From Hemileia vastatrix (lineage: Eukaryota > Basidiomycota > Pucciniomycetes > Pucciniales > Zaghouaniaceae), in assembly GCA_030280995.1 (NCBI GenBank), contig JASXTE010000001.1, positions 20,712,106 through 20,776,105 of the forward strand: a stretch of DNA of 64,000 nt. The letters run 5' to 3'. The notes beneath the pieces are model-generated. The model ran no database searches, was not told the origin of the DNA, and saw only the letters and a list, made by a program, of their open reading frames with translations. Within the stretch, counting starts at the first letter, position 1, and the number at the start of each line of letters is the position of its first letter. A program made the translations under genes and the position numbers. Below are positions 16,395 through 58,166 of the stretch, one piece after another.

Positions 16395-16463
16395 ATGTTG
16401 AATTGTCCTACCCAAACTCCCACGCCTCCACACCCCAAAGCGGATGGTGGAATCATTACCCGG
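16395..16463 (+). pseudogene. Zn2Cys6-pattern gene, 5' exon (split by LTR element)
   Basis: ATG at 16395 opens 23 codons (Pro/Thr rich) in the same frame that resumes at 22032 once the 4-bp duplication is counted once. The reading frame is therefore exactly preserved across the 5.6 kb insertion. The start is supported by the TATA box 80 bases upstream. See the 3' part at 22028-22897. Confidence 0.55.
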
Positions 16464-17406
16464 TGTGGTGATCCAAACCTGGGTAGGCCTTTGGAGTGCA
16501 TATTTTGGGGTATTTGGTATGTAGGATGTTATTGGGTTTATGGTGTTATTAGTGGATTTTTTCATATTTAGGAGATAGTTAGTAGTGTTTATGGAGGCTT
16601 AAGCTAGGGTCACTTATTATGTCTCAGCTTAATGTCCTTTCTTTTCACTTTATTTTGGTATCCCTTATGGGTGGTTACCTTGTTTTATAGGGTAGTTATG
16701 GTGTTATTATTGGTATTTATCGGATGTTTATTGCTTAGTGGTTCTTATGTAGGCTTGAGTTAGGGTCACTTATTATGTCTCAGCTTATTGTCCTTTATTT
16801 TCTTTTCATTTTGGTATGTCTTATGTGTGTTTATCTTGTTTATTAGTGAAGTTATGGGTTTTTAGGGTTTTTAGGGTTTTTATGGGTTGTATGGGTGTTT
16901 TAGGGCCTAGAAGCGGCCCGCCCGCCCCCAAGCGGCCTGCCTGCCCCTAAGCGGAGCCGCCTCCAAGCGTCCTGGCCGCCTGGGCGCTGGGGAAGCGCCA
17001 AAATGCACTTTTATGCATGAAAAAGGCTGGGAAAGCTGGATTTTGGACAGGGAATTGGTCAGGGTGGTCTGTGCACTGGCTGTATGATGCGTGTGTGGGA
17101 AGATTTTTAGAAGAGCATCTTATCTCTTTACTCACCGCCTCTCTGTTCCTCACTGTCTCATTGGCTTGTGTTTTGTTTGAATATATTACTGTTCAATTCA
17201 ACTCTTTCTAGTAGTCTTTCTGGGACTATTATCTTCACTTTAAAGGGGTCAAGAGTGTTTAATTAGAGGGTCTAGCAAACATATCTCCAATTTGCTGCAA
17301 CAGGTTAATCTCACTTATTTTTCTAAAGTGACAGGGGATTTTCTCTCTGGTTTTTCTCCAACTCCCTTGGTCAAGGCCTATAGCTAGTACTATAGGATTG
17401 TCTACA
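16464..17406 (+). repeat. 5' LTR of Gag-only element
   Basis: Begins TGTGGTGATC and ends GATTGTCTACA. It holds an internal duplication of about 157 bp (TTAGGGTCACTTATTATG words near 16605 and 16762), a run of T-rich units ending AGGG near 16856-16885, and a GC-rich island at 16905-17005 made of degenerate AAGCGGCC-GCC units. The 60-70-residue readings here are LTR sequence, present in both copies. Confidence 0.9.
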
Positions 17407-17410
17407 TTTC

Positions 17411-17427
17411 TGGCGCCCAACGTGGGG
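17411..17427 (+). promoter_or_regulatory. Primer-binding site
   Basis: TGGCGCCCAACGTGGGG starts four bases after the 5' LTR, the standard place for tRNA-primed minus-strand DNA synthesis. The element at 45106-58166 has the same site with a single base difference (57044-57060, minus strand). I did not assign the tRNA. Confidence 0.85.
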
Positions 17428-17643
17428 TCGAATCTGTTGGCTTTTTGGAATCTCTGTTGATCTAGGCTTCTCTCTTTGGTGGATCTCCTTTGGTGGATTT
17501 TGAATTTGGTGCTATATCTCTTTGTGGTTGGTCTAGGGGTCTTCTTTTCTGTTGTTTTTGGTCCCTCCTAGGTCTCTAAGGCTACTGGGGGGACTTTGGC
17601 TCTCTTTGGTGGAGATTGGAGGCTGTAACTTGGAATTGCTAGG

Positions 17644-19026
17644 ATGGTTAGGATTCAGTCTTGGGATGGTTCAAGGTTTTTGGGAGAGGATGCAAAGGGG
17701 TTTTTGGCTTGGTTTGAGGTTGCTGCTGAGATTGATGGGGCCTCACTGTTGGACATGGTCAGGCAAGTAATCTTTTTCATTGGTAATAGGGAGGTGGAGA
17801 AGGAAGTTTCTGGTATGGAAGGATATAGGAGTCAGGACTGGGGGAAGTTGAAGATTGAAATGGTTAAAAGGTGGCCCACTTCTTTCTCAATGGTGGATCT
17901 TCATGGGATTGCTAGGAAGTGGGAATTGAAAGGTGGTGTAACTTCTCTTTCTCAGTATGGGGACTTTACGGAGGAGTTTGGGGAGGCTCTGGATTATCTG
18001 GTATATAATGATATATTACCACATGAAGATGGGGCCAAGTATGTATTTTGTAGTGCTGTGGGTAGGAATGAAAAGGTGGAGGTTATGGAGATTCTTTTCA
18101 AGGCTGACTTGATGAAGACTCTTCCAAATGGGGAAAATAGGATTCCTGGTATGGCTATTCTGAAGGAGGTTATTTTGGGATATTTGGATGGTATTATGAA
18201 TAGGGATGTGGAATCTGGAGAGGAAATCCTGTTGGATGGAGTGGTTCAGGAGACTGTGGTGGAAAATTCAGTTTCTGGAAAGGTGTTGGAGCCATCAAAT
18301 TTGGAAGATGGGGACTCTGATGATGTTTGTGAAACTGATTTTTCTTTTCCAAAGGATGCCATGGGATCTCAGGAATGTGCTTCACTGGATGTTTTGGAAA
18401 TTTACACACTGGAGGATCAGTGTATTTCCTCAAGTTTGGGTGAATTATGTGGGAAGGAGGACTTGTCTGGTCATGAAGAAGGATTTTGGGATATTGAGAA
18501 GGAATCTGTGGTGGATGAATGGTTTCTGTGGGATGATTATTTTTCTTTCTCAAGTTCAGATAATGGCTTATTTAAGGAGGATGTATCAGTTGAATTTTTG
18601 GATGGACAGATGGATTCTGTCTTGGATCTTTTTCTCATAGAGAAAGATTATTTTCAGGTGGTTCCCTCAAAATCTGAAGCTCTCTGCTTGGAGGAGGATT
18701 TTTATTTTGATGTTATGGATGTTATTCTGGAGGATTTTGCAGATTCTAAGCAAGATTCCTGTAGGGAAGGGGAAAGTTGTGATGTTTTGGATGTCACTGG
18801 TCTGGAGGTTGATTTTAAAGATGTGGTGGAGGTTCCAGATGTTTCACAGGATGGAGAATTTATTAATTCTGGTTATGTGAACTATGGTAGACTCAGTGTA
18901 TGGAGGAGGATGGAAGATTTGTTTGGAGGTCTGATTTTGGGATATCAGAATTGGAAGAGGAGCTTAGGGGGTTCAGGCCCTAGGGGCAAACTTATTGGTT
19001 TAAACCTTGGGATTTCAAGAATCTGA
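17644..19026 (+). CDS. gag: Gag-like protein of non-autonomous LTR element
   Basis: 460 residues, open throughout. Residues 1-165 align with the Gag of the 45-58 kb element: RI.SWDG near the start, then LDMV.Q..FFI..R.VEKEV and MEGY, D-W, KGGV, and L..LPNGE...P...I..... at the end of the shared part. Residues 170-420 are strongly acidic and show no zinc knuckle, unlike the longer Gag. It would assemble RNA particles, or join those of a helper; both are inferred. The start ATG aligns with the VRI..WDG block of the other Gag. Antisense and shifted frames inside it (18194-18553, 18206-18640) are shadows. Confidence 0.8.
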   Translation: MVRIQSWDGSRFLGEDAKGFLAWFEVAAEIDGASLLDMVRQVIFFIGNREVEKEVSGMEGYRSQDWGKLKIEMVKRWPTSFSMVDLHGIARKWELKGGVTSLSQYGDFTEEFGEALDYLVYNDILPHEDGAKYVFCSAVGRNEKVEVMEILFKADLMKTLPNGENRIPGMAILKEVILGYLDGIMNRDVESGEEILLDGVVQETVVENSVSGKVLEPSNLEDGDSDDVCETDFSFPKDAMGSQECASLDVLEIYTLEDQCISSSLGELCGKEDLSGHEEGFWDIEKESVVDEWFLWDDYFSFSSSDNGLFKEDVSVEFLDGQMDSVLDLFLIEKDYFQVVPSKSEALCLEEDFYFDVMDVILEDFADSKQDSCREGESCDVLDVTGLEVDFKDVVEVPDVSQDGEFINSGYVNYGRLSVWRRMEDLFGGLILGYQNWKRSLGGSGPRGKLIGLNLGISRI

Positions 19027-19165
19027 TTCCTCCAAAATGAGGATAAACTACTTAATTTGTTTTGGTTTTGCTTAATTTGGCCTCTATGTATTTGGTCAGG
19101 ATTTTTTTTTGTTTTGTCCAATTCTTTTCAGTCTCTCTGGTTCAAGTCTCTATATAAAAAAGGGA

Positions 19166-19212
19166 GGCCGGGCCGCTTCAGGAAGCACCTCCGACTTCGG
19201 GCGGCCGGCCCG
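19166..19212 (+). other. GC-rich hairpin after a TATA run
   Basis: Within AT-rich DNA, GGGCCGC (from 19171) faces GCGGCCGGCCCG (19201-19212), enclosing a GAAG...CTTC inner pair. It follows TATATAAAAAAG at 19151-19162 and resembles the GC-rich island of the LTR. It could be an internal promoter or RNA structure; undecided. Confidence 0.4.
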
Positions 19213-19521
19213 TAATGAAAAAAAAAATCTTAGTATAATGAAGATGGAAGAAAAGAAAAATTCAAGTGAAGATGGATATTTTATTTAAAATAAAATGAAG
19301 ATAAAAATGAAGATTATTGGTTTTATTTCACCTCCGGAATGAGGTTAAACTGCAAAAAAAAAAAAAAAAAAAATTCTAAATTGGATTTTTTTTGGCTTAA
19401 AAGAATTTTAATGGTTTTTTAATGGTTTTGGTTTTTTATGGGAGAAGATTTGTGTTGGAAAATCCTTTTTGTTAGAAGGTACCCAGGGGTGGAGCTTCTA
19501 GATTTTGTTTTGGAAAGTGTG

Positions 19522-19562
19522 GGGGTGACTGATGGGCTGGCTTCTCTATCAACAGTTACCCC
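19522..19562 (+). repeat. Long hairpin copy 1
   Basis: GGGGTGACTG pairs with CAGTTACCCC over 10 bp (one G-U) around a loop containing GATGGGCTGG. An AGAAG...CTTCT mini-stem precedes it. Copies: 19786-19827, 20500-20540, and 49770-49810 in the 13 kb element. Confidence 0.75.
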
Positions 19563-19785
19563 AGATTGTCTGTTTCCAACCCCTTCTCTTAATTTTGTTG
19601 AATTCTAGTATTGGTTTTTTTTCTTTAACAGGTTTTTAGTCCACCATGACTTTAAACTGGAAATTATTTTGGTCTTCAAGTGCTGGACCCCTCATGTTTA
19701 TTGGTTTTGTTTAATTTTGTTGGATGTTGTGTTTTTGTTAGAAGGTACCTAGGGGGGGCTTCTAGATTTTATTTTGGCAAGTGTG

Positions 19786-19827
19786 GGAGTAACTGATGAG
19801 CTGGCTGCTTGGTAGAACAGTTACCCC
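19786..19827 (+). repeat. Long hairpin copy 2
   Basis: GGAGTAACTG and CAGTTACCCC, one mismatch. The loop has GATGAGCTG (19795-19803), exactly complementary to CAGCTCATC at 19987-19995, so a loop-loop contact is possible. Confidence 0.7.
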
Positions 19828-19943
19828 AGAATGTCTGTTTCAAGCCTTTGGTTTTTTTTCTAGTTGAATTCTAGTGTTGTTTATTTTTGTGATTCAGGTT
19901 TTTAGTCCTCTATGACTTTAAACTGAAATTTTTTTAGGTGTGA

Positions 19944-19969
19944 CCACATCAAGGTGCACTTGGATGTGG
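19944..19969 (+). repeat. CCACATC/GATGTGG hairpin
   Basis: A perfect 7-bp outer stem, extendable inward by AAG/CTT. The same stem (6 bp) and inner AAG/CTT recur in the 13 kb element at 49378-49401 on the minus strand, beside the same GCTCATCAATTGG word. Confidence 0.7.
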
Positions 19970-20499
19970 GTAAGGTATCAGGGGATCAGCTCATCAATTG
20001 GGTGGGGGATACCATTTTATTTTGTTTTATTTGTTAAAGGAGGTTAAATGTTTTGGCTTTGATGGTTTTTGGTTTGGGGATTTATGGGATATATCTTCAA
20101 GATTTTTTTGGAAAGTCCTTCAAGACTTTAAACTGATCTTTTAATTACGGGCTCAAGATTTTTTGATGTCCATCAAGACTTTAAACTGAAAATTCTGTTA
20201 GTCCTCCAAGACTTAAAACTGGCTGGTTTTTAAAGATTTATTCAAGAATTTAATTTTACTACTGTGGATCTAGTAGTCCTCCAAGACTTTAAACTGGCTG
20301 GTTTCAAGATTTTGTCAAGAAGTAGTCCGTCAAGACTTTAAACTGAACACTGTGTTAGTCCCCCAAGACTTTAAACTGAGGATTGTTGATGGTAAGTCCC
20401 CCAAGACTATAAACTGAGGAATGGGAGGCAGTGTGATGTTGAAGTTTAAAGGCAGAAGGATCCAAGGGGGAACTTCTGAATTTTGTAAAGGCAATTTTG

Positions 20500-20540
20500 G
20501 GGGTGACTGATGGGCTGGAAGCTCTATATACAGTTACCCC
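20500..20540 (+). repeat. Long hairpin copy 3
   Basis: GGGGTGACTG pairs with CAGTTACCCC over 10 bp with one G-U pair; the loop carries GATGGGCTGG as in copy 1. Confidence 0.75.
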
Positions 20541-20761
20541 AGAAAGTTAGTTACTTCTCTAAATCTTTTTCTGGTTGATCTCTGGTTCTGGGTTCTGTGA
20601 TTCAGGGTTTTTCAGTCCCCCAAGACTATAAACTGAGGATTTTTGGAGTCCCCCAAGACAATAAAATGAGGGCTGGTAGTCCTCCAAGACTTTAAACTGA
20701 GGGCTTTTAGTCCCCCAAGACTTTAAACTGAGGGTTGTGAGTCCCCCAAGACTATAAAATG

Positions 20762-21074
20762 AGGAAATTTTTATGCTGGTAGAAGGTTATAGTCGGGAAG
20801 ACTTGTCAACTGGATATCACTTTTCATTTTTGGAGGCTGGTACAGCCAGAGTTGGGATTCAGGAACAGAAGAAAGAGATTCTTTTCAAAGAGATAGGTTT
20901 AATTTAAAGGCATGGTGCAAGAGAAGTTTTAAAGAAGAAGCTTGGATTGCTGGTTCAGAAGCTCACTTAGGATGGAATAGGATCTGGTGGAAGAGAGAAA
21001 TAAGCTTTTTGTAAAGATTCTGGATAGGTGTTCAAGCATGGATTTGGCAAAGGAGGAATGGGGACATTTTTGAT
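20762..21074 (+). other. Element 3' leader to purine tract, no gene
   Basis: Purine-rich plus strand with no frame longer than a few dozen codons. Confidence 0.5.
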
Positions 21075-21085
21075 TGGAGGGAGGA
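21075..21085 (+). promoter_or_regulatory. Polypurine tract
   Basis: TGGAGGGAGGA directly abuts the 3' LTR start at 21086, the position used to prime plus-strand DNA. Confidence 0.75.
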
Positions 21086-22027
21086 TGTGGTGATCAAAAC
21101 CTGAGTAGGCCTTTGGAGTGCATATTTTGGGGCATTTGGTATGTAGGATGTTATTGGGTTTATGGTGTTATTAGTAGATTTTTTCATATTTAGGAGATAG
21201 TTAGTAGTGTTTATGGAGGCTTAAGATAGGGTCACTTATTATGTCTCAGCTTAATGTCCTTTCTTTTCTCTTCATTTTGGTATCCCTTATGGGTGGTTAC
21301 CTTGTTTTATAGGGTAGTTATGGTGTTATTATTGGTATTTATCGGATGTTTATTGCTTAGTGGTTCTTATGTAGGCTTGAGTTAGGGTCACTTCTAATGT
21401 CTCAGCTTATTTTACTTTATTTTCTTTTCATTTTGGTATGTCTTATGTGTGTTTATCTTGTTTATTAGTGAAGTTATGGGTTTTAGGGTTTTTAGGGTTT
21501 TTATGGGTTGTATGGGTGTTTTAGGGCCTAGAAGCGGCCCGCCCGCCCCCAAGCGGCCTGCCTGCCCCTAAGAGGAGCCGCCTCCAAGCGGCCTGGCCGC
21601 CTGGGCGCTGGGGAAACGCCAAAATGCACTTTTATGCATGAAAAAGGCTGGGAAAGCTGGATTTTGGGCAGGGAATTGGTCAGGGTGGTCTGTGCACTGG
21701 CTGTATGATGCGTGTGTGGGAAGATTTTTAGAAGAGAATCTTATCTCTTTACTCATCGCCTCTCTGTTCCTCACTGTCTCATTGGCTTGTGTTTTTTTGG
21801 AATATATTACTGTTCATTTCAACTCTTTCTAGTAGTCTTTCTGGGACTATTATCTTCACTTTAAAGGGGTCAAGAGTGTTTAATTAGAGGGTCTAGCAAA
21901 CAGATCTCCAATTTGCTGCAACAGGTCAATCTCACTTATTCTTCTAAAGGGAAAGGGGATTTTCTCTCTGGTTTTTCTCCAACTCCCTTGGTCAAGGCCT
22001 ATAGCTAGTACTATAGGATTGTCTACA
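21086..22027 (+). repeat. 3' LTR of Gag-only element
   Basis: 942 bp, TGTGGTGATC to GTCTACA, matching 16464-17406. It is followed by CCGG, the same four bases that precede the 5' LTR. Confidence 0.9.
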
Positions 22028-22897
22028 CCGGCAGTATTCCCAAGCCTGCAAAGCCTGCAAGTTGATGGAGTACTTCTGCATTGATAGCACAGCGACATGG
22101 GGTCCTCTCCAGAAATGCAAATTTTGCCTCTGGAGACAGGTGGCGTGTGATGCCTTGTCTAAAAATGCGGAAATTGAGAATTGATTTACGAAAACCAAAT
22201 ATTGGGTAATACCGAAAACCAAAGAGGTGGTGGAAGATATTTGGGACGTATCAATTGGGGATGATCAGTCAGTGGGAGAGACTGAGGAGGAAGTTGAAGA
22301 TACTGTGGCAACCTGGGTAACCCAGGCCACAAGTAAGAAACGAGGGGTCGAAGATGAGGTAGATGAATTAGTTGAAGAGGATGAGGATGAAGTCCCCATC
22401 TCAAGACGGATGCCAAAGAAGCGGAGGATGGTCATCAAGGATAACAAAGAGGAGAAATAAGTGGTTGTGGAAGTCACCCCAAAATTATTCTTAGAAGCCG
22501 ACCCATTATTCGAAGTAAGTCCGTTCTTCTGTTATTTTAAAAATTTTGTTACTGATGATCTTGTTTTTAGGATTCAGATGTCATCACGGAAGTTCCGATT
22601 GTGGAAGCTACGCCATTGCTGCCAGTTGAGACAAATCAACCAGTGGTTTATTTGAGGGAGGGCAATGAAGAGACTCTCAACCAGGTATGGTTGAAGAAAC
22701 CTTGCCAAGGTCGACAAACTCGATTCATTGAAGATTTAAGCGGTGAAGTTGATAAGATTGTCAATTCTGCCTCCTTTGACGTGGACGAAGAATTACTGGA
22801 AATTGGGGAAGTGGTACCGTTAGGAGAGGAGGGGGTTTTTGAGAAATTCAGGAAGGAAATAAGAGTGGTTTTGGAAAAAATGAAGAGATTGGTTTGA
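22028..22897 (+). pseudogene. Zn2Cys6-pattern gene, 3' part, with intron
   Basis: In frame with 16395-16463 are six cysteines spaced C-x2-C-x6-C-x12-C-x2-C-x6-C (about 22040-22150), the spacing of fungal GAL4-type zinc clusters, though without the usual basic stretch in the first half. An acidic region and a KKRR-type basic patch follow (22260-22460). A GTAAGT...TTTTTAG intron with a CTGAT branch site spans 22515-22570 and joins the frame to 22571-22897. In-frame TGA (22182) and TAA (22458) plus the LTR insertion kill the gene. A DNA-binding regulator is a guess from spacing alone. Opposite-strand readings here are shadows. Confidence 0.55.
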
Positions 22898-45105: not shown

Positions 45106-46161
45106 TGTATGTAGACTCTTACAGTCACCTTTCTGTAAGCAGAATCTGAAGGAGTTGGATATTCAGAGAAAACCCTGTCCCTCTAAATGAATTTGTGAGT
45201 TTTTTAGATCAATAAGCTTAAAAGTCTACTTGATAATAATAAACAATGAAACCCTTTCTAATTAATGCTTGTTAGGATGATGGAGCGGTTCTTCTGTGCA
45301 AATCAACTGAAATGCAACAATAAAGTTACACCAGATAAAATATTTTAAAAGAAAGTAGTTTTAATGTTTTTAGATTTTAATAATTTCTGAGAACAGATAC
45401 TACAAATGAGTCCCTGGAGTTGAGAACTTTCTAATGATACGCTATATGTTAATGTTTAAGAGTTTTTGAGTAAAATATTTAAAGTGTTATGTGAAATTGT
45501 TATTTTATAAGGGTATTATAAATGATTAGTTATTTTGTTGACAAAAGAAAAATATGAATAATGGTTGTTATTATCTATCCTCCCTATTTTCCCCCAAATA
45601 ACTTCGAGTCTACAGCCTTATATGCATATTAACCAGTCATGTGCCCTTTTTCCCTCTGGAGTGCGGCCAGAGCTCATCCAGAGCTTGTCCGGATCTCTGG
45701 ACTCAATTTGAACCTTAAATCTATAATGAGAAATCTAGAAAATTACAAATGATAGAGCTACTTCTCCTTAACGTTCCTAACTTTTTTTTGTAGTCTGCGC
45801 AGCTCTATTTACCCTATAACCTTTCATCAAAGTTAAGTAATTTTTTGAAAAACGTAAATAATTTAAAAAATCTTTAAAAATCATTAAAAATATAATAAAA
45901 ATAGTGAAAATTCAGGGAAAATTCCCAAAGTTTCTGGAGCTTCTCCTCTTTCATTAGGTTTAATTTTTGCAGCCGTAAAAAATCTTATGACCCATGAAAT
46001 TAATAAATCTGACCAAACATTCATATCTTGACTTTTTCAACTTCATTTTTTGTTTATTAATAAAATATTTAAAATTAATCCGGCTTCTCCGATCACCGTC
46101 CTATTCCCAGAAAATATTCTAAATAGACTTTTAGAGCCGTACTATGATTTGGAATGCCACA
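45106..46161 (-). repeat. 3' LTR of 13 kb element
   Basis: 1,056 bp. On the minus strand it runs TGTGGCATTCC to CTACATACA. Two 11-bp units at 45668-45689 against six in the 5' LTR account for most of the length difference. Confidence 0.88.
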
Positions 46162-46171
46162 TCCTCTCTCC
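46162..46171 (-). promoter_or_regulatory. Polypurine tract
   Basis: Minus strand GGAGAGAGGA lies directly against the 3' LTR, showing that the internal region truly ends here. Confidence 0.75.
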
Positions 46172-46320
46172 AAGGAAGAATGTCCTCATTCTTTGAATTT
46201 TGCATGTTCAATCAATATATAATCCTACTTTTATCTTCTCCATATTCTTCTCTTCTTTATTTCTTCAACATCCCACTCCAACTAAATAATCTTATTTCTA
46301 CTTTTATAAGTACCATCATC

Positions 46321-46985
46321 AGTATGAAAGATCTTTCCATACCAAGCAACCTCTGCAAGAAATATGAAGTCACTTGCTTGATGTCCTTTCCAAATCCTCC
46401 TGGAAGAACTGCTTGTGATCTCTGTTGCTCCAAAAAGGTTAAATGCATCCGGCCAACTTCTAAACCATCTTTCAATCCTATTTCTGGCCCATCTACTGCT
46501 CCAGCTTCTAACTTATCTAATAAAATATTAGCAAAAGTACCTTTATTCTGGAAAAGGATCAAGGCTAAAACTAAACCACCATCTCCAACTTCATCTCTAA
46601 TCCCTCCTTCTCAAGATCCTTCACCCATACTTCCAGTTTCTTCTTTTTCTTTTTTCCAGACTTTATTTCCTGGGTCCCAAAGTAAGCCTTTTTTAATAAT
46701 TATTTTTTTATTCCATGCTAATCCCAATAATGGCTTTCTCATCCTTTAGCTATTAACATCACCAACTCTGATGATGTAGGTTGAGTCCAAATGGACTATA
46801 TAAATCATTATCCTAAATTTCATAGATATTTTTTTCTTGACTTTACTGATGATATAAAGAGAAATATTTTATCCTATTTCCAAGACACTCCCGCCAATAA
46901 TCATGAAGATTTAATGAAGAGAAGATTGTTGATGCAGAGTTTTGATGATGATGTAGAAAAATTTCAGCAAAATTATTTATTTTAA
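46321..46985 (+). pseudogene. Antisense Zn2Cys6-pattern gene, copy A
   Basis: Exon 1 from ATG 46321 (the earlier in-frame ATG at 46144 lies in the LTR). Cysteines follow the pattern S-x2-C-x6-C-x12-C-x2-C-x6-C: the first expected Cys is Ser (AGC, one base from TGC), with KKVKC at the end. A Ser/Pro/Lys-rich linker follows. A GTAAGC...CTTTAG intron (46682-46749) splits a codon after its first base. Exon 2 has one TGA (46782), then DYINHYPKFHRYF and ILSYFQDTPANNHEDLMKRR, aligning with copy B. Five of six cysteines and a matched intron support a real former gene. The minus reading 46257-46562 is a shadow. Confidence 0.6.
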
Positions 46986-47607: not shown

Positions 47608-47882
47608 CCAGTTTAGATGTCTTGGTGGACAGTGATAAATTAAAATGAGTGCATAGAGTTGCATAGAATATTCCAGTTTAAGGTCATGGGGGACCCATCT
47701 TGTAAATCTCTTTTAAATTGTCCAAATAACGATTGAATTGCCAGTTTAATGTCATGGAGGACAAAGAATGAGTGATTTTCCAGTTTAGGGTCATAGTGGA
47801 TCAAAGAATGATAAAATTGCCAGTTTAAGGTCATGGTGGACCAAAGAATGATAAACTTGCCATTTTAAGGTCATGGTGGACC
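47608..47882 (-). repeat. Six covarying hairpins, minus strand
   Basis: Read on the minus strand: arm, 6-base loop, arm, then TTAAACTGG. Positions and arms: 47608-47631 TGTC/GACA; 47673-47695 GGTC/GACC; 47741-47763 TGTC/GACA; 47780-47802 GATC/GACC (one mismatch); 47820-47842 and 47860-47882 GGTC/GACC. Loops CACCAA, CCCCAT, CTCCAT, CACCAT. Same family as the 19029-20761 array but with different, still complementary arms. Minus readings at 47640-47834 and 47791-48102 are not genes. Confidence 0.85.
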
Positions 47883-48003: not shown

Positions 48004-49034
48004 ATGACTCCATCCAACTATGTTTCTTCTCCTGATCAAGCTTGAAATTACTGCTGTTTCACCCATCAAGAATGTGTTTATACCTTTAACCCTAAGAAAC
48101 ACACCTATAAAAGAGCTTGTTCTGCCTGCTTCATTAAGAAAAGAAAATGCTCCAGCTTGAAATATGGTTCCTTGCCAATTCCTGCTACCTCTTTTGCCTC
48201 CTTCTGTAGTCCCATTCCAAAACCATCAACACCTCCTATTCCTTCTACTTTCAACAATCCAACACCATTTAACCCCTCTGCCTATCTAAACTTCTCTCCT
48301 GAATAAAACACACCAGGTCCAGCTGCTCCTTCTCTTCAGTCTAGGCTTGCTTCTAATCCTCACAGGACTCCAATCGCTCCAAGAGCCATGAGAAAAACTC
48401 CTTCAATTAAACCATCCTTGGATCTTTCCTCTTCAACTTCTATCCAATCTCCTAGCCCCATAATAATAAACAAGCCCAAAAGATCTAGAACCAACAGCCT
48501 TCCTTCTTCTCCTATCTCCAAAAAATCCCCTAAAAGACCCAGATCCAATACCAAACCTCCTTCAAAAATTATCAACCCCTTCACATCTCTAAAAACACCA
48601 ATTCCTATGCCCAGTAAGCCTTTTAGACTTAATCTCAACAGTTTTGATAGCGGTTAGTATCCCTTTTATCTTGATTAGATCATAATTATAAAGTTGACTC
48701 TTGCTCCATAATTCCAGTGTCCAATGCTTCAACCATTCATTCATCAGCATATGAGCTTCCTTTACCTGATCATAGTTATCCCCAGGTCACTATTCATCTA
48801 GTTGTAAGTCACCTTTCACCTAATTTCAATAATATTTTAACTTATTTTCACCATTATCCTCCTTCTGATCAAACTGAGGTATGGTTCAGAGAGCAAATTT
48901 TGAGGGATCAACTAAAAATAGCCAACTGGCTTTGAATTTCACAATACCAACAAATTGATTCAGCTACCAGGATAATCAACGATTCAGCTCCAAATTCTTC
49001 TGATAGAGCTCCTTCCAAAAATAATTCTTCTTAA
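48004..49034 (+). pseudogene. Antisense Zn2Cys6-pattern gene, copy B
   Basis: ATG 48004. The first cysteine of the cluster is now TGA (48043-48045). The rest reads x2-C-x6-C-x14-C-x2-C-x6-C with KKRKC at the end. A long Ser/Pro/Lys linker with KPKRSR and KKSPKRPRS basic patches follows, with a TAA at 48304. A GTTAGT...TTCCAG intron (48653-48717) splits a codon after base one, as in copy A. Exon 2 aligns with copy A (ILTYFHHYPP...) and has a TGA at 48934 before the final TAA at 49032. Zinc-cluster spacing and nuclear-type basic patches suggest a DNA-binding protein; this is inference. The minus frame 48360-48638 is a shadow. Confidence 0.62.
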
Positions 49035-49680: not shown

Positions 49681-49703
49681 CCAGTTTATAGTCTTAGCAG
49701 ACT
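49681..49703 (-). repeat. Covarying hairpin unit (AGTC/GACT)
   Basis: Minus strand AGTC, loop TGCTAA, GACT, then ATAAACTGG. Same arms as most units of the Gag-only element, unlike its neighbours at 47.6-47.9 kb. Confidence 0.75.
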
Positions 49704-50019: not shown

Positions 50020-50190
50020 AAGAAAGTAGTTTATCATCATTCTGGAGTTAACCTTCAAACAATTGTAGAAATAGTTTACCCTCATTTCAGAGTTAACCTT
50101 CAGACAATTGTAGAAATAGTTTACCCTCATTTTGGAGTTAACCTTCAGACAATTGTAGAAATAGTTTACCCTCATTTCAGAGTTAAATTT
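50020..50190 (-). repeat. Four 45-46-bp tandem units at pol 3' end
   Basis: AGTTTA words at 50027, 50073, 50118 and 50163. Each unit holds a weak hairpin (CTC/GAG) and a GGGTAAAC-like tail akin to the hairpin family. The minus reading (49969-50196) is a repetitive peptide and not a separate gene. Confidence 0.65.
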
Positions 50191-51855: not shown

Positions 51856-51935
51856 CCAGTTTATCCTCTTGGTGGAGGTCTTCATCACAATCATCTATAC
51901 ACAATAGTCCTTCCAGTTTAACCTCATGGGGGAGG
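51856..51935 (-). repeat. Two hairpin units inside pol
   Basis: 51856-51878 (CCTC, loop CACCAA, GAGG, ATAAACTGG) and 51913-51935 (CCTC, loop CCCCAT, GAGG, TTAAACTGG). Both lie in the reading frame between RNase H and integrase. Confidence 0.8.
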
Positions 51936-53913: not shown

Positions 53914-54041
53914 GCAGTTTATCCTCTTTCTGGAGGACCAGAATCAAATTATCACAAGAATTATTTTTTTGTTTTTTAATTATACTAAGATTTTTTATAG
54001 AATTTTGATGAAATAATTGCAGTTTACCCTCTTTCTGGAGG
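53914..54041 (-). repeat. Two hairpin units inside pol linker
   Basis: 53914-53936 and 54020-54041, each CCTC, loop CAGAAA, GAGG, then ATAAACTG or GTAAACTG. They encode near-identical LQKE(D/G)KL peptides. Confidence 0.8.
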
Positions 54042-57065: not shown

Positions 57066-58166
57066 GTAGGTAAACTCTTACAGTCGCCTTGCTGTAAGCA
57101 GAATCCGAAGGAGTTGGATAATCAGAGAAAACCCTGTACCTCTAAATGAATTTGTGAGTTTTTTAGATCAATAAGCTTAAAAGTCTACTTGATAATAATA
57201 AACAATGAAACCCTGTCTAATTAGCGCTTGTTAAAATGATTGAGCGGTTCTTCTGTGAAAATCAACTGAAATGCAACAATAAAGTTACACCAGATACAAT
57301 ATTTTAAAAGAAAGTAGTTTTAATGTTTTTAGATTTTAATAACTTCTGAGAGCAGATACTATAAATGAGTCCCTGGAGTTGAGACCTTTCTAATGATACC
57401 CTATATTTTAATGTTTAAGAGTTGTTGAGTAAAATATTTAAAGTGTTATGTGAAATTGTTATTTTATAAGGGCATTATAAATGATTAGTTATTTTGTTGA
57501 CAAAAGAAAAATATGAATAATGGCTGTTATTATCTATCCTCCCTGTGTTCCCCCAAATAACTTCAAGTCTAGAGCTTATATGCATATTAAACAGTCATGT
57601 GCCCTTTTTCTCTCTGGAGCGTCGCCAGAGCCCATCCAGAGCTCGTCCGGAGCTCGTATGGAGTTTGTCTGGAGCTTGTACGGAGCTTGTCCGGACCTCC
57701 GGACTCAATTCAGAACCTTAAATCTATAATCAAAAATCTAGAAAAATTACACATGATAGAGCTACTTCTCCTCAACATTCCTAACTAATTTTGGTAGTCT
57801 CCGCAGCTCTATTCACCCTATAGAAATTCATCAAAGTTAAGTAATTTTTCGAAAAATGTAAATAATTTAATAAATCTTTAAAAATCAATTAAAAATATAA
57901 GAAAAATAGTAAAAATTCAGGGAAAATTCTTAAAGGTTCTTGAGCTTCTTGTCTTTCATTAAATTTAATTTTATGGCCATAAAAAATTATATGACCTGTG
58001 AAATTAATAAATCTGACCAAACATTCATATCTTGACTTTTTCAACTTCATTTTTTGTTTATTAATAAAATATTTAAAATTAATCCGGCTTCTCCAATCAC
58101 CGTCCTGATTCCCAGTAAATATTCTAAATAGAATTTTAGAGCCGTACTATGATTTGGAATTCCACA
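57066..58166 (-). repeat. 5' LTR of 13 kb element
   Basis: 1,101 bp, on the minus strand TGTGGAATTCC to CCTACA. It holds six tandem 11-bp units (GGAGCTCGTCC type) at 57627-57692 and a seventh decayed one. ORFs at 57520-57788 are this repeat. Confidence 0.88.

Follow-up and report, generated by a model that had tools for sequence, protein, structure and literature searches.

We analyzed a window of 64,000 nucleotides (nt) from the rust fungus Hemileia vastatrix (contig JASXTE010000001.1, 20,712,106 to 20,776,105), in which positions are counted from the first letter. The window holds a complete long terminal repeat (LTR) retrotransposon, E1, whose one long open reading frame (ORF) encodes a Gag-like protein, and a second element, E2, which bears pol. 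Both carry many copies of a short hairpin unit, and this unit is the subject of the present study. Related elements at other loci of the genome are designated by locus (L001, L034 and so on).

Two retrotransposons carrying the hairpin unit

E1 extends over 5,564 bp on the forward strand (16464-22027) and is bounded by a 4-bp target duplication, CCGG (16460-16463 and 22028-22031). Its 5' LTR (16464-17406, TG...CA) and 3' LTR (21086-22027) are 97.2% identical over 943 bp. A primer binding site, TGGCGCCCAACGTGGGG (17411-17427), which we take to be of the tRNA-Lys(CUU) type, and a polypurine tract, GGAGGGAGGA (21076-21085), were read from the sequence. The long ORF, of 460 amino acids (17644-19026), was called Gag by its likeness to the gag of E2 (67.8% over 183 bp); it had no match in Pfam, no zinc knuckle was seen in it by eye, and a protein search with it gave 5594 candidates, none at E <= 0.001. 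One further copy of this gag, at L016, is 95.1% identical without indels, contains two stops and gives a ratio of nonsynonymous to synonymous substitution rates (dN/dS) of 0.82. Pol is absent, no ORF of at least 80 amino acids was found 3' of gag, and no antisense ORF of at least 110 codons lies between gag and the 3' LTR. With its LTRs, target duplication, primer binding site, polypurine tract and gag ORF, E1 has the make-up of a non-autonomous Gag-only element, as a sequence-only reading of this DNA had proposed, presumably of the TR-GAG type.

The unit measures 22 nt and consists of a 4-bp arm, a 6-nt loop, the complementary arm and a conserved tail, NTAAACTG. In E1, we found 16 units with a search model (R1), all on the sense strand. 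The first begins 2 nt after the gag stop codon (19029-19050, CCTC/GAGG arms). It is followed by unit 2 (19331-19352, CCTC/GAGG) and by units 3 and 4 (19638-19659 and 19904-19925, both AGTC/GACT). Units 5 to 11 occupy 20114-20416 (starts 20114, 20167, 20200, 20275, 20324, 20357 and 20395), and units 12 to 16 occupy 20614-20761 (starts 20614, 20647, 20678, 20709 and 20740). The arms form four perfect Watson-Crick pairs in 14 of the 16, and three pairs in those at 20167 (TGTC/GACT) and 20647 (AGTC/GACA). Between 19000 and 20800 of the window, N4-N6-N4 hairpins occur at 26 of 1787 positions, with just 12 besides the units. All 16 copies listed by the sequence-only reading were recovered at their starts, from 19029 to 20740, as were the CCTC/GAGG arms of the first two. 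However, the switch from AGTC/GACT to CCTC/GAGG, said to change three of four pairs, changes two (A-T to C-G and G-C to C-G). Its statement that the region has no coding frame stands for the 3' region of E1 and fails for the pol-bearing relatives, in which units lie in frame within pol. The E1 units resemble those of L001, a locus in which a Cys-rich antisense ORF is still present.

E2 lies on the minus strand, from about 58163 to beyond 45500, with LTRs that were recognised by eye and not aligned. It has gag, protease, reverse transcriptase (RT)-RNase H and integrase, interrupted by stops. A zinc knuckle was seen by eye in its gag; Pfam missed that of the related L034 ORF1 too. The RT-RNase H of E2 is nearest to those of rust fungi among the best named matches (Austropuccinia psidii, 62%; Puccinia striiformis, 59%), and unnamed matches reach 69% over most of the query. 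Model R1 found 15 units, all on the sense strand of E2, so that the unit is not a peculiarity of the Gag-only element. Between protease and RT, two CCTC/GAGG units (54041 and 53936; 53915-54041) lie in a frame without stops, and two more (51935 and 51878; 51857-51935) are in frame in the stretch that separates RNase H from integrase. Just after pol stand four ACTC units with arms of at most 3 bp (50183, 50138, 50093 and 50048; 50027-50183), then an AGTC/GACT unit (49682-49703) that follows a longer hairpin, B1 (49810-49770), described below. The last six form an array (47609-47882) with GGTC/GACC arms at 47882, 47842 and 47695, GATC/GACC at 47802 and TGTC/GACA at 47763 and 47631, the tail of the last being preceded by one additional base.

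Conservation, pairing and codon choice in the unit

As units were compared between families, the arms and tail were held and the loop drifted. Pooling two of the eight family comparisons made (E1-L001 and E2-L035), we observed differences at 11 of 179 arm sites (6.1%) and 4 of 161 tail sites (2.5%), compared to 30 of 138 loop sites (21.7%) and 581 of 2495 spacer sites (23.3%). The arms differ significantly from both the spacer (p = 3.7e-9) and the loop (p = 6.9e-5), and the loop changes at the spacer rate (p = 0.76). The remaining six comparisons go mostly in the same direction. Free drift of the arms, the outcome that the sequence-only reading had named as speaking against its view, was thus not observed, and its statement that the arms are less constant than the loop is reversed. 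The constancy of the tail is partly by construction, since units were located by it, and the apparent constancy of the loop at letter 1 (C) and at letters 5-6 (A, A/T) partly reflects selection criteria. The alignments were anchored on conserved words, which may flatter the units, yet this cannot explain the contrast inside the 22-mer.

Pairing was then assessed with selection on the tail only, in 310 kb comprising 26 evenly spaced loci, the window and L035, with G-U pairs allowed. A fully paired N4-N6-N4 precedes 80 of 225 TAAACT[GA] words, whereas 1000 shuffles of the arms averaged 20 and never exceeded 32; one of the 80 is an A-T-only word outside any unit (L026, minus strand, 3818). Six scrambled versions of the tail word follow a paired N4-N6-N4 in only 6 of 282 occurrences. 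A scan blind to the arms selected on the tail, on loop letters 1, 5 and 6, and on another such word within 3 kb; the 29 isolated words dropped at this clustering step included none that was paired. On the sense strand of element stretches, 80 of 105 words were fully paired, compared to none of the 29 words outside these stretches or on the opposite strand; this split is not independent of an earlier arm-using scan from which the stretches were drawn by hand.

For covariation, 58 of the 61 distinct 22-mers were retained, three unpaired, background-like words of L021 being excluded. The arm types met across elements are AGTC/GACT, GGTC/GACC, TGTC/GACA and CCTC/GAGG. Pair 1 is A-U in 16 units, C-G in 16, G-C in 8, U-A in 2 and G-U or U-G in 3, with 13 others; pair 2 is G-C in 31 and C-G in 23, with 4 others; pairs 3 and 4 are nearly invariant. 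Paired cells amounted to 91.4% compared to 71.7% after shuffling, and the covariation score was 0.440 compared to 0.136, with none of 500 shuffles as high in either case and 0.273 for the best shifted version. The number of pair types and the number of pairs with double changes were not above shuffles in these 58 units. To reduce the effect of shared ancestry, units were collapsed by flanking sequence into lineage-level rows. Of the 24 rows in the class with GTC arms, 18 have a Watson-Crick outer pair, compared to 9.1 in shuffles, of which 3 in 20,000 were as high. These results agree with the selection on pairing claimed by the sequence-only reading. Comparison of the copies gives strong evidence in the GTC class and for the change from one class to the other, and says nothing for the outer pair where the arms are of the CTC class.

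The copies inside pol provide a further view of the same constraint. ORF2 of L034 contains ten units in one frame (CTC NNN NNN GAG GNT AAA CTG). Eight of them precede RT, and the remaining two lie between RNase H and the integrase, which follows on L035. In the background of this ORF, CTC accounts for 5 of 97 Leu codons and CTG for 4 of 97, and 9.3% of third positions are C. Nevertheless, CTC and CTG are the codons of all ten copies (6 distinct contexts), and the preceding codon ends in C, for four different amino acids. The codon after GAG or GAC was compared across six loci, in 22 distinct contexts. Its second base is free, its first is G in 19 of them, and its third, T, is part of the tail used for finding units. 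L-xx-E is written CTC/GAG in E2 and in the L034 linker. L039, a more distant element, has four copies in the corresponding linker, where V-xx-D is written GTC/GAC in three, AAC replaces GAC in one, and the pair is broken in two. Since a peptide would not need these fixed codons, they suggest a requirement of the stem rather than of the protein. ORF2 of the L034/L035 element terminates inside a unit (ending SAEVYLRNEDKL before the stop), and a closely similar protein, P0134, from a contig filed under Xanthomonas A2111, also ends inside one. In L034, ORF1 (gag-protease) and ORF2 (pol) are read in different frames and share 22 nt (L034:6528-6549), a possible site of frameshifting or reinitiation.

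Abundance and accompanying structures

The unit is highly repeated in the rust genome, which was scanned over 747.6 Mb in 791 contigs. Counting both strands, AGTCNNNCAAGACTWTAAACTG with at most one mismatch occurs 29,735 + 29,630 = 59,365 times and CCTCCNNNAWGAGGNTAAACTG, exact, 15,841 + 15,637 = 31,478 times; BGTCCNNNAWGACVNTAAACTG occurs 6,791 + 6,854 times and TGTCCNNNNWGACANTAAACTR 252 + 258 times. The reversed versions of these four patterns gave no occurrence. The 26 evenly spaced loci (238 kb without N) held 44 paired units at seven loci, which extrapolates to approximately 138,000; these loci were drawn from two of the 791 contigs, and L035 was chosen, not random. The number of units in the genome is thus of the order of about 100,000. 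Pattern scans of viral contigs gave 6 and 1 matches, about chance by a rough estimate, and scans of genomic and viral contig collections with RT-RNase H proteins for related loci gave no relative.

Other structures accompany the units. The B1 hairpin, with a 10-bp stem (GGGGTRAYTG/CARTTACCCC), is present three times on the forward strand of E1, at 19522-19562, 19786-19827 (one pair broken) and 20500-20540. Every B1 copy, three in E1 and one in E2, has a hairpin unit after it. Its compensatory alternatives are C-G/U-A and A-U/G-U among 12 sequences, many of them close relatives. A B2 block (19944-20013, forward strand) contains the hairpins CCACATC..GATGTGG and GGTATC..GATACC and shows three compensatory pairs in seven sequences, again with many close relatives. 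A kissing contact between the B1 and B2 loops is possible (GATGAGC/GCTCATC), in letters that are too constant for covariation. A third hairpin-like block, GATCACTGG...CCCAGTGATC, was seen by eye at about 49530-49465 (minus strand) of the window, at L001:10-70 and at about L035:1980-2045.

Rfam gave nothing above the gathering threshold for E1, L035 and L001; the best match, MIR8024, reached 27-31 bits compared to a threshold of 57.3, with others weaker, and an identity with this family was rejected, the match being below threshold and on the minus strand. A ribosomal slippery site, UUUAAAC, in the tail was discarded, being absent in units with ATAAAC and GTAAAC. The same applies to a splice donor, as most units are without GT, and to a Dicer substrate, the stems being just 4-6 bp. 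An outer helix, GGTTT/AAACT, predicted around the unit in some 38-nt folds, was likewise rejected, being absent from those of the two CCTC units.

Several further features of the two elements were recorded. E1 is apparently inserted in the Cys-rich ORF of another element (16420-16463 and 22028 onward), and a stretch similar to this ORF lies at about L039:4420-3600 (minus strand). The E1 LTR contains a unit-like hairpin, AGTC-N7-GACT, without the tail (17213-17227). GC-rich short tandem repeats occur in the LTRs of E1 and E2 (16911-16954, 21532-21601 and 57616-57699), an unusual feature given the AT-richness of the genome, whose evenly spaced loci have 34% GC. Two forward-strand ORFs in the interior of E2 (46135-46746 and 48307-48654) are antisense to the element, and antisense ORFs are also present in the 3' region of pol-bearing elements at L035:4997-5437, L035:2935-3777 and L001 from 1350 (all minus strand). 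P0134 and another protein, P0148, both from the 21.9-kb contig filed as Xanthomonas A2111, have integrase and RNase H 84-86% identical to those of E2; this contig is probably rust contamination of a bacterial assembly.

Possible readers of the hairpin

Comparison of the copies makes selection on a hairpin of the sense RNA well supported, and RNA is favoured over DNA or peptide because of the single orientation, the coding copies and the compensation. The cruciform protein site also suggested by the sequence-only reading is disfavoured by the one-strand orientation and the coding copies. As a function, we tentatively propose, as plausible rather than probable, that the unit is a cis-acting RNA hairpin acting as a dispersed Gag-binding signal for packaging or assembly. 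The sense transcript would fold at each unit into a variable stem of 4-6 bp with a largely free 6-nt loop, leaving the tail single-stranded on the 3' side. Repeated approximately 15-30 times per RNA, the units would sit in the untranslated regions (UTRs) and pol linkers, where a fixed motif may be least harmful. The reader would be one of the clade's own proteins, most likely Gag; it would bind stem and tail many times, and this repeated binding might select, compact or package the RNA into particles. Many copies of a short stem, with the loop free to vary and the single strand on its 3' side fixed, would suit such a multiply binding reader of stem and tail. Gag would be the natural candidate because E1, without protease, RT, integrase and antisense genes, seems to have retained a gag ORF and the hairpin field together with its LTRs, primer binding site and polypurine tract. 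The constraint on the Gag of E1 itself is in doubt because of the dN/dS of 0.82 and the two stops of the L016 copy, and packaging of E1 by the Gag of a partner is equally possible.

The same hairpin could be read by a host protein or by a non-structural protein of the element, in nuclear export, stability, translation or escape from silencing. All the structural evidence fits this reader equally well, units stand at ORF ends (at 19029 right after the gag stop, and at the end of ORF2 in L034/L035), and the dN/dS of the E1 gag suggests that its own Gag may not matter. We nevertheless consider it somewhat unlikely, since the paired units are confined to 7 of the 26 loci, each judged to hold this clade, in a scan that required clustered units, where a general host signal might be expected elsewhere too, and since the coding copies are far upstream of any ORF end. 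Neutral tandem or dispersed duplication of a few founders whose arms were complementary by chance would agree with the shared ancestry of the units and with the 3' tandem repeats of no known function that are common in plant LTR elements (PMC11963269, PMC7004042). This is improbable in view of the divergence of the spacers (23%) compared to arms (6%) and tail (2.5%), and of the presence of all four Watson-Crick types at one pair.

Very improbable, in turn, is a DNA operator for the antisense Zn2Cys6-like gene in the 3' region of the pol-bearing elements. In L035, antisense ORF A has a match to Zn_clus (23 bits for a cut-off of 21, E 8.6e-5), and the GGTC array (from 3666) starts approximately 96 nt ahead of antisense ORF B, on the upstream side of its ATG (3570); the AGTC array of L001 starts (from 1501) approximately 151 nt upstream of the ATG of its Cys-rich antisense ORF (1350); the match of ORF B to the Zn2Cys6 cluster is weak (E 0.95), and the L001 ORF was judged by eye. 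However, E1 has 16 units and no antisense ORF of at least 110 codons 3' of gag, the tail is non-symmetric and in a single orientation, units also lie inside pol, and the arms take several unrelated sequences, a variation that a sequence-specific DNA-binding protein would rarely accept. We give hardly any credence to a peptide motif, [LV]xx[DE]xKL, acting as a protease site or linker repeat of pol, with the 3' copies as duplicated relics. The coding copies do share one frame and flank RT-RNase H, but their extreme codon choice tracks pairing and not the amino acid, the residue after D/E varies (G, V, D, A, N, H) over a first base that is mostly G, and the 3' arrays are out of frame and nevertheless keep arms and tail.

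A number of results weigh against a packaging hairpin, or narrow what can be claimed for it. No observation links the unit to Gag in particular; the E1 Gag is without a visible zinc knuckle, its dN/dS in comparison with the L016 copy is near neutral, and the evidence comes from one rust genome. The stems themselves are weak. The E1 3' region, in 26 windows of 150 nt, folds no better than dinucleotide shuffles (sense z -1.5 to 2.4), and the predicted fold of 38-nt windows contains the 4-bp stem in only 11 of the 16 E1 units, so that the case rests on covariation and conservation and not on predicted stability. The outer pair of the CTC class shows no compensation, with 10 of 15 lineage-level rows paired, as in shuffles. 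Broken outer pairs (GGTC/GACA, for example) have been propagated too, in approximately one quarter of the places listed in the scan for the BGTC pattern, and G-U and A-C mismatches occur in 6 and 3 copies, a small count. By our own estimate, the shared ancestry of the units may leave approximately four to five independent compensations. The contrast between unit and spacer is weaker where sites are few, as in E2-L021 (arms 7/8, tail 6/7, spacer 0.80), and is weak for the 3' arm in E2-L007 (24/28, spacer 0.82). Finally, the RNase H-integrase linker was seen by pattern in 8 of 150 retrieved proteins, with the motif in none of the 8, and, P0134 aside, four of the other 148 match [LV]xx[DE]xKL, none in a recognisable linker of this kind. 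In this small sample, the coding motif is thus missing from relatives in other rusts, and the unit looks specific to this element clade.

The proposed packaging signal has partial counterparts among known systems. For RNA viruses, the capsid protein has been modelled as reading many dispersed stem-loops, and the authors extend the idea to Gag-like proteins (PMC6281560). Like signals of the MS2 type, the rust unit is a stem-loop with a common recognition feature, the conserved tail, present many times on one RNA (16 times in E1, 15 in E2). By contrast, MS2 is read at the loop and a bulged A (PMC6281560), whereas the loop of the rust unit drifts, without a conserved apical motif, and stem and tail are held; the rust element is an LTR retrotransposon and not a virus, and its unit is a putative signal. 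The plant Ty3-gypsy elements of the Retand/Tat/Ogre group resemble the rust elements in a long region between pol and the 3' LTR with family-specific repeats, and Retand also in antisense ORFs with a probable DNA-binding domain (PMC11963269, PMC7004042). Differences from Retand lie in the fungal host, in an antisense domain of the Zn_clus and not the TRP28 type, and in a covarying hairpin that is also inside pol. Membership in the Retand lineage was rejected, the RT being closest to rust fungi among named matches and antisense ORF A being Zn_clus-like. The words hairpin, stem-loop and secondary structure are absent from the main text of PMC11963269.

The packaging sites of Ty1 and Ty3 are not clearly defined, and scattered sites are thought likely; in Ty3, cis-sequences for retrotransposition lie at the element ends, and packaging needs UTRs or POL sequence (PMC4974528). 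The step of the life cycle proposed for the rust unit is the same, but a repeated hairpin is not described for Ty1 or Ty3 in the part of that article cited here. Elements of the TR-GAG/LARD type share with E1 the LTRs, primer binding site, polypurine tract and gag ORF without pol, and E1 adds the hairpin field. The word hairpin is also absent from the main text of articles on rust genome expansion (PMC12210899, PMC8063080) and on terminal-repeat retrotransposons in miniature of the Pucciniales (PMC10886601). Within Rfam and the open-access text searched, the remark of the sequence-only reading that no described element is like this one therefore stands.

It is a doubtful but real possibility that these elements represent the first clade of LTR retrotransposons with a dispersed, degenerate RNA code for packaging or assembly, placed in UTRs and in the pol frame, used by a Gag-only relative for its own packaging and present in approximately 100,000 copies. 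Inside pol, the unit shows a code at the nucleotide level superimposed on a reading frame. How an LTR retrotransposon chooses its own RNA is poorly defined even in Ty1 and Ty3 (PMC4974528). The candidate signal is short, repeated and countable, and is found on an element that has lost nearly all else, so that it could be tested with short synthetic RNAs. If the proposal is true, the tandem repeats in the 3' region of large Ty3 elements, whose function is given as unknown (PMC11963269), would gain a possible role.

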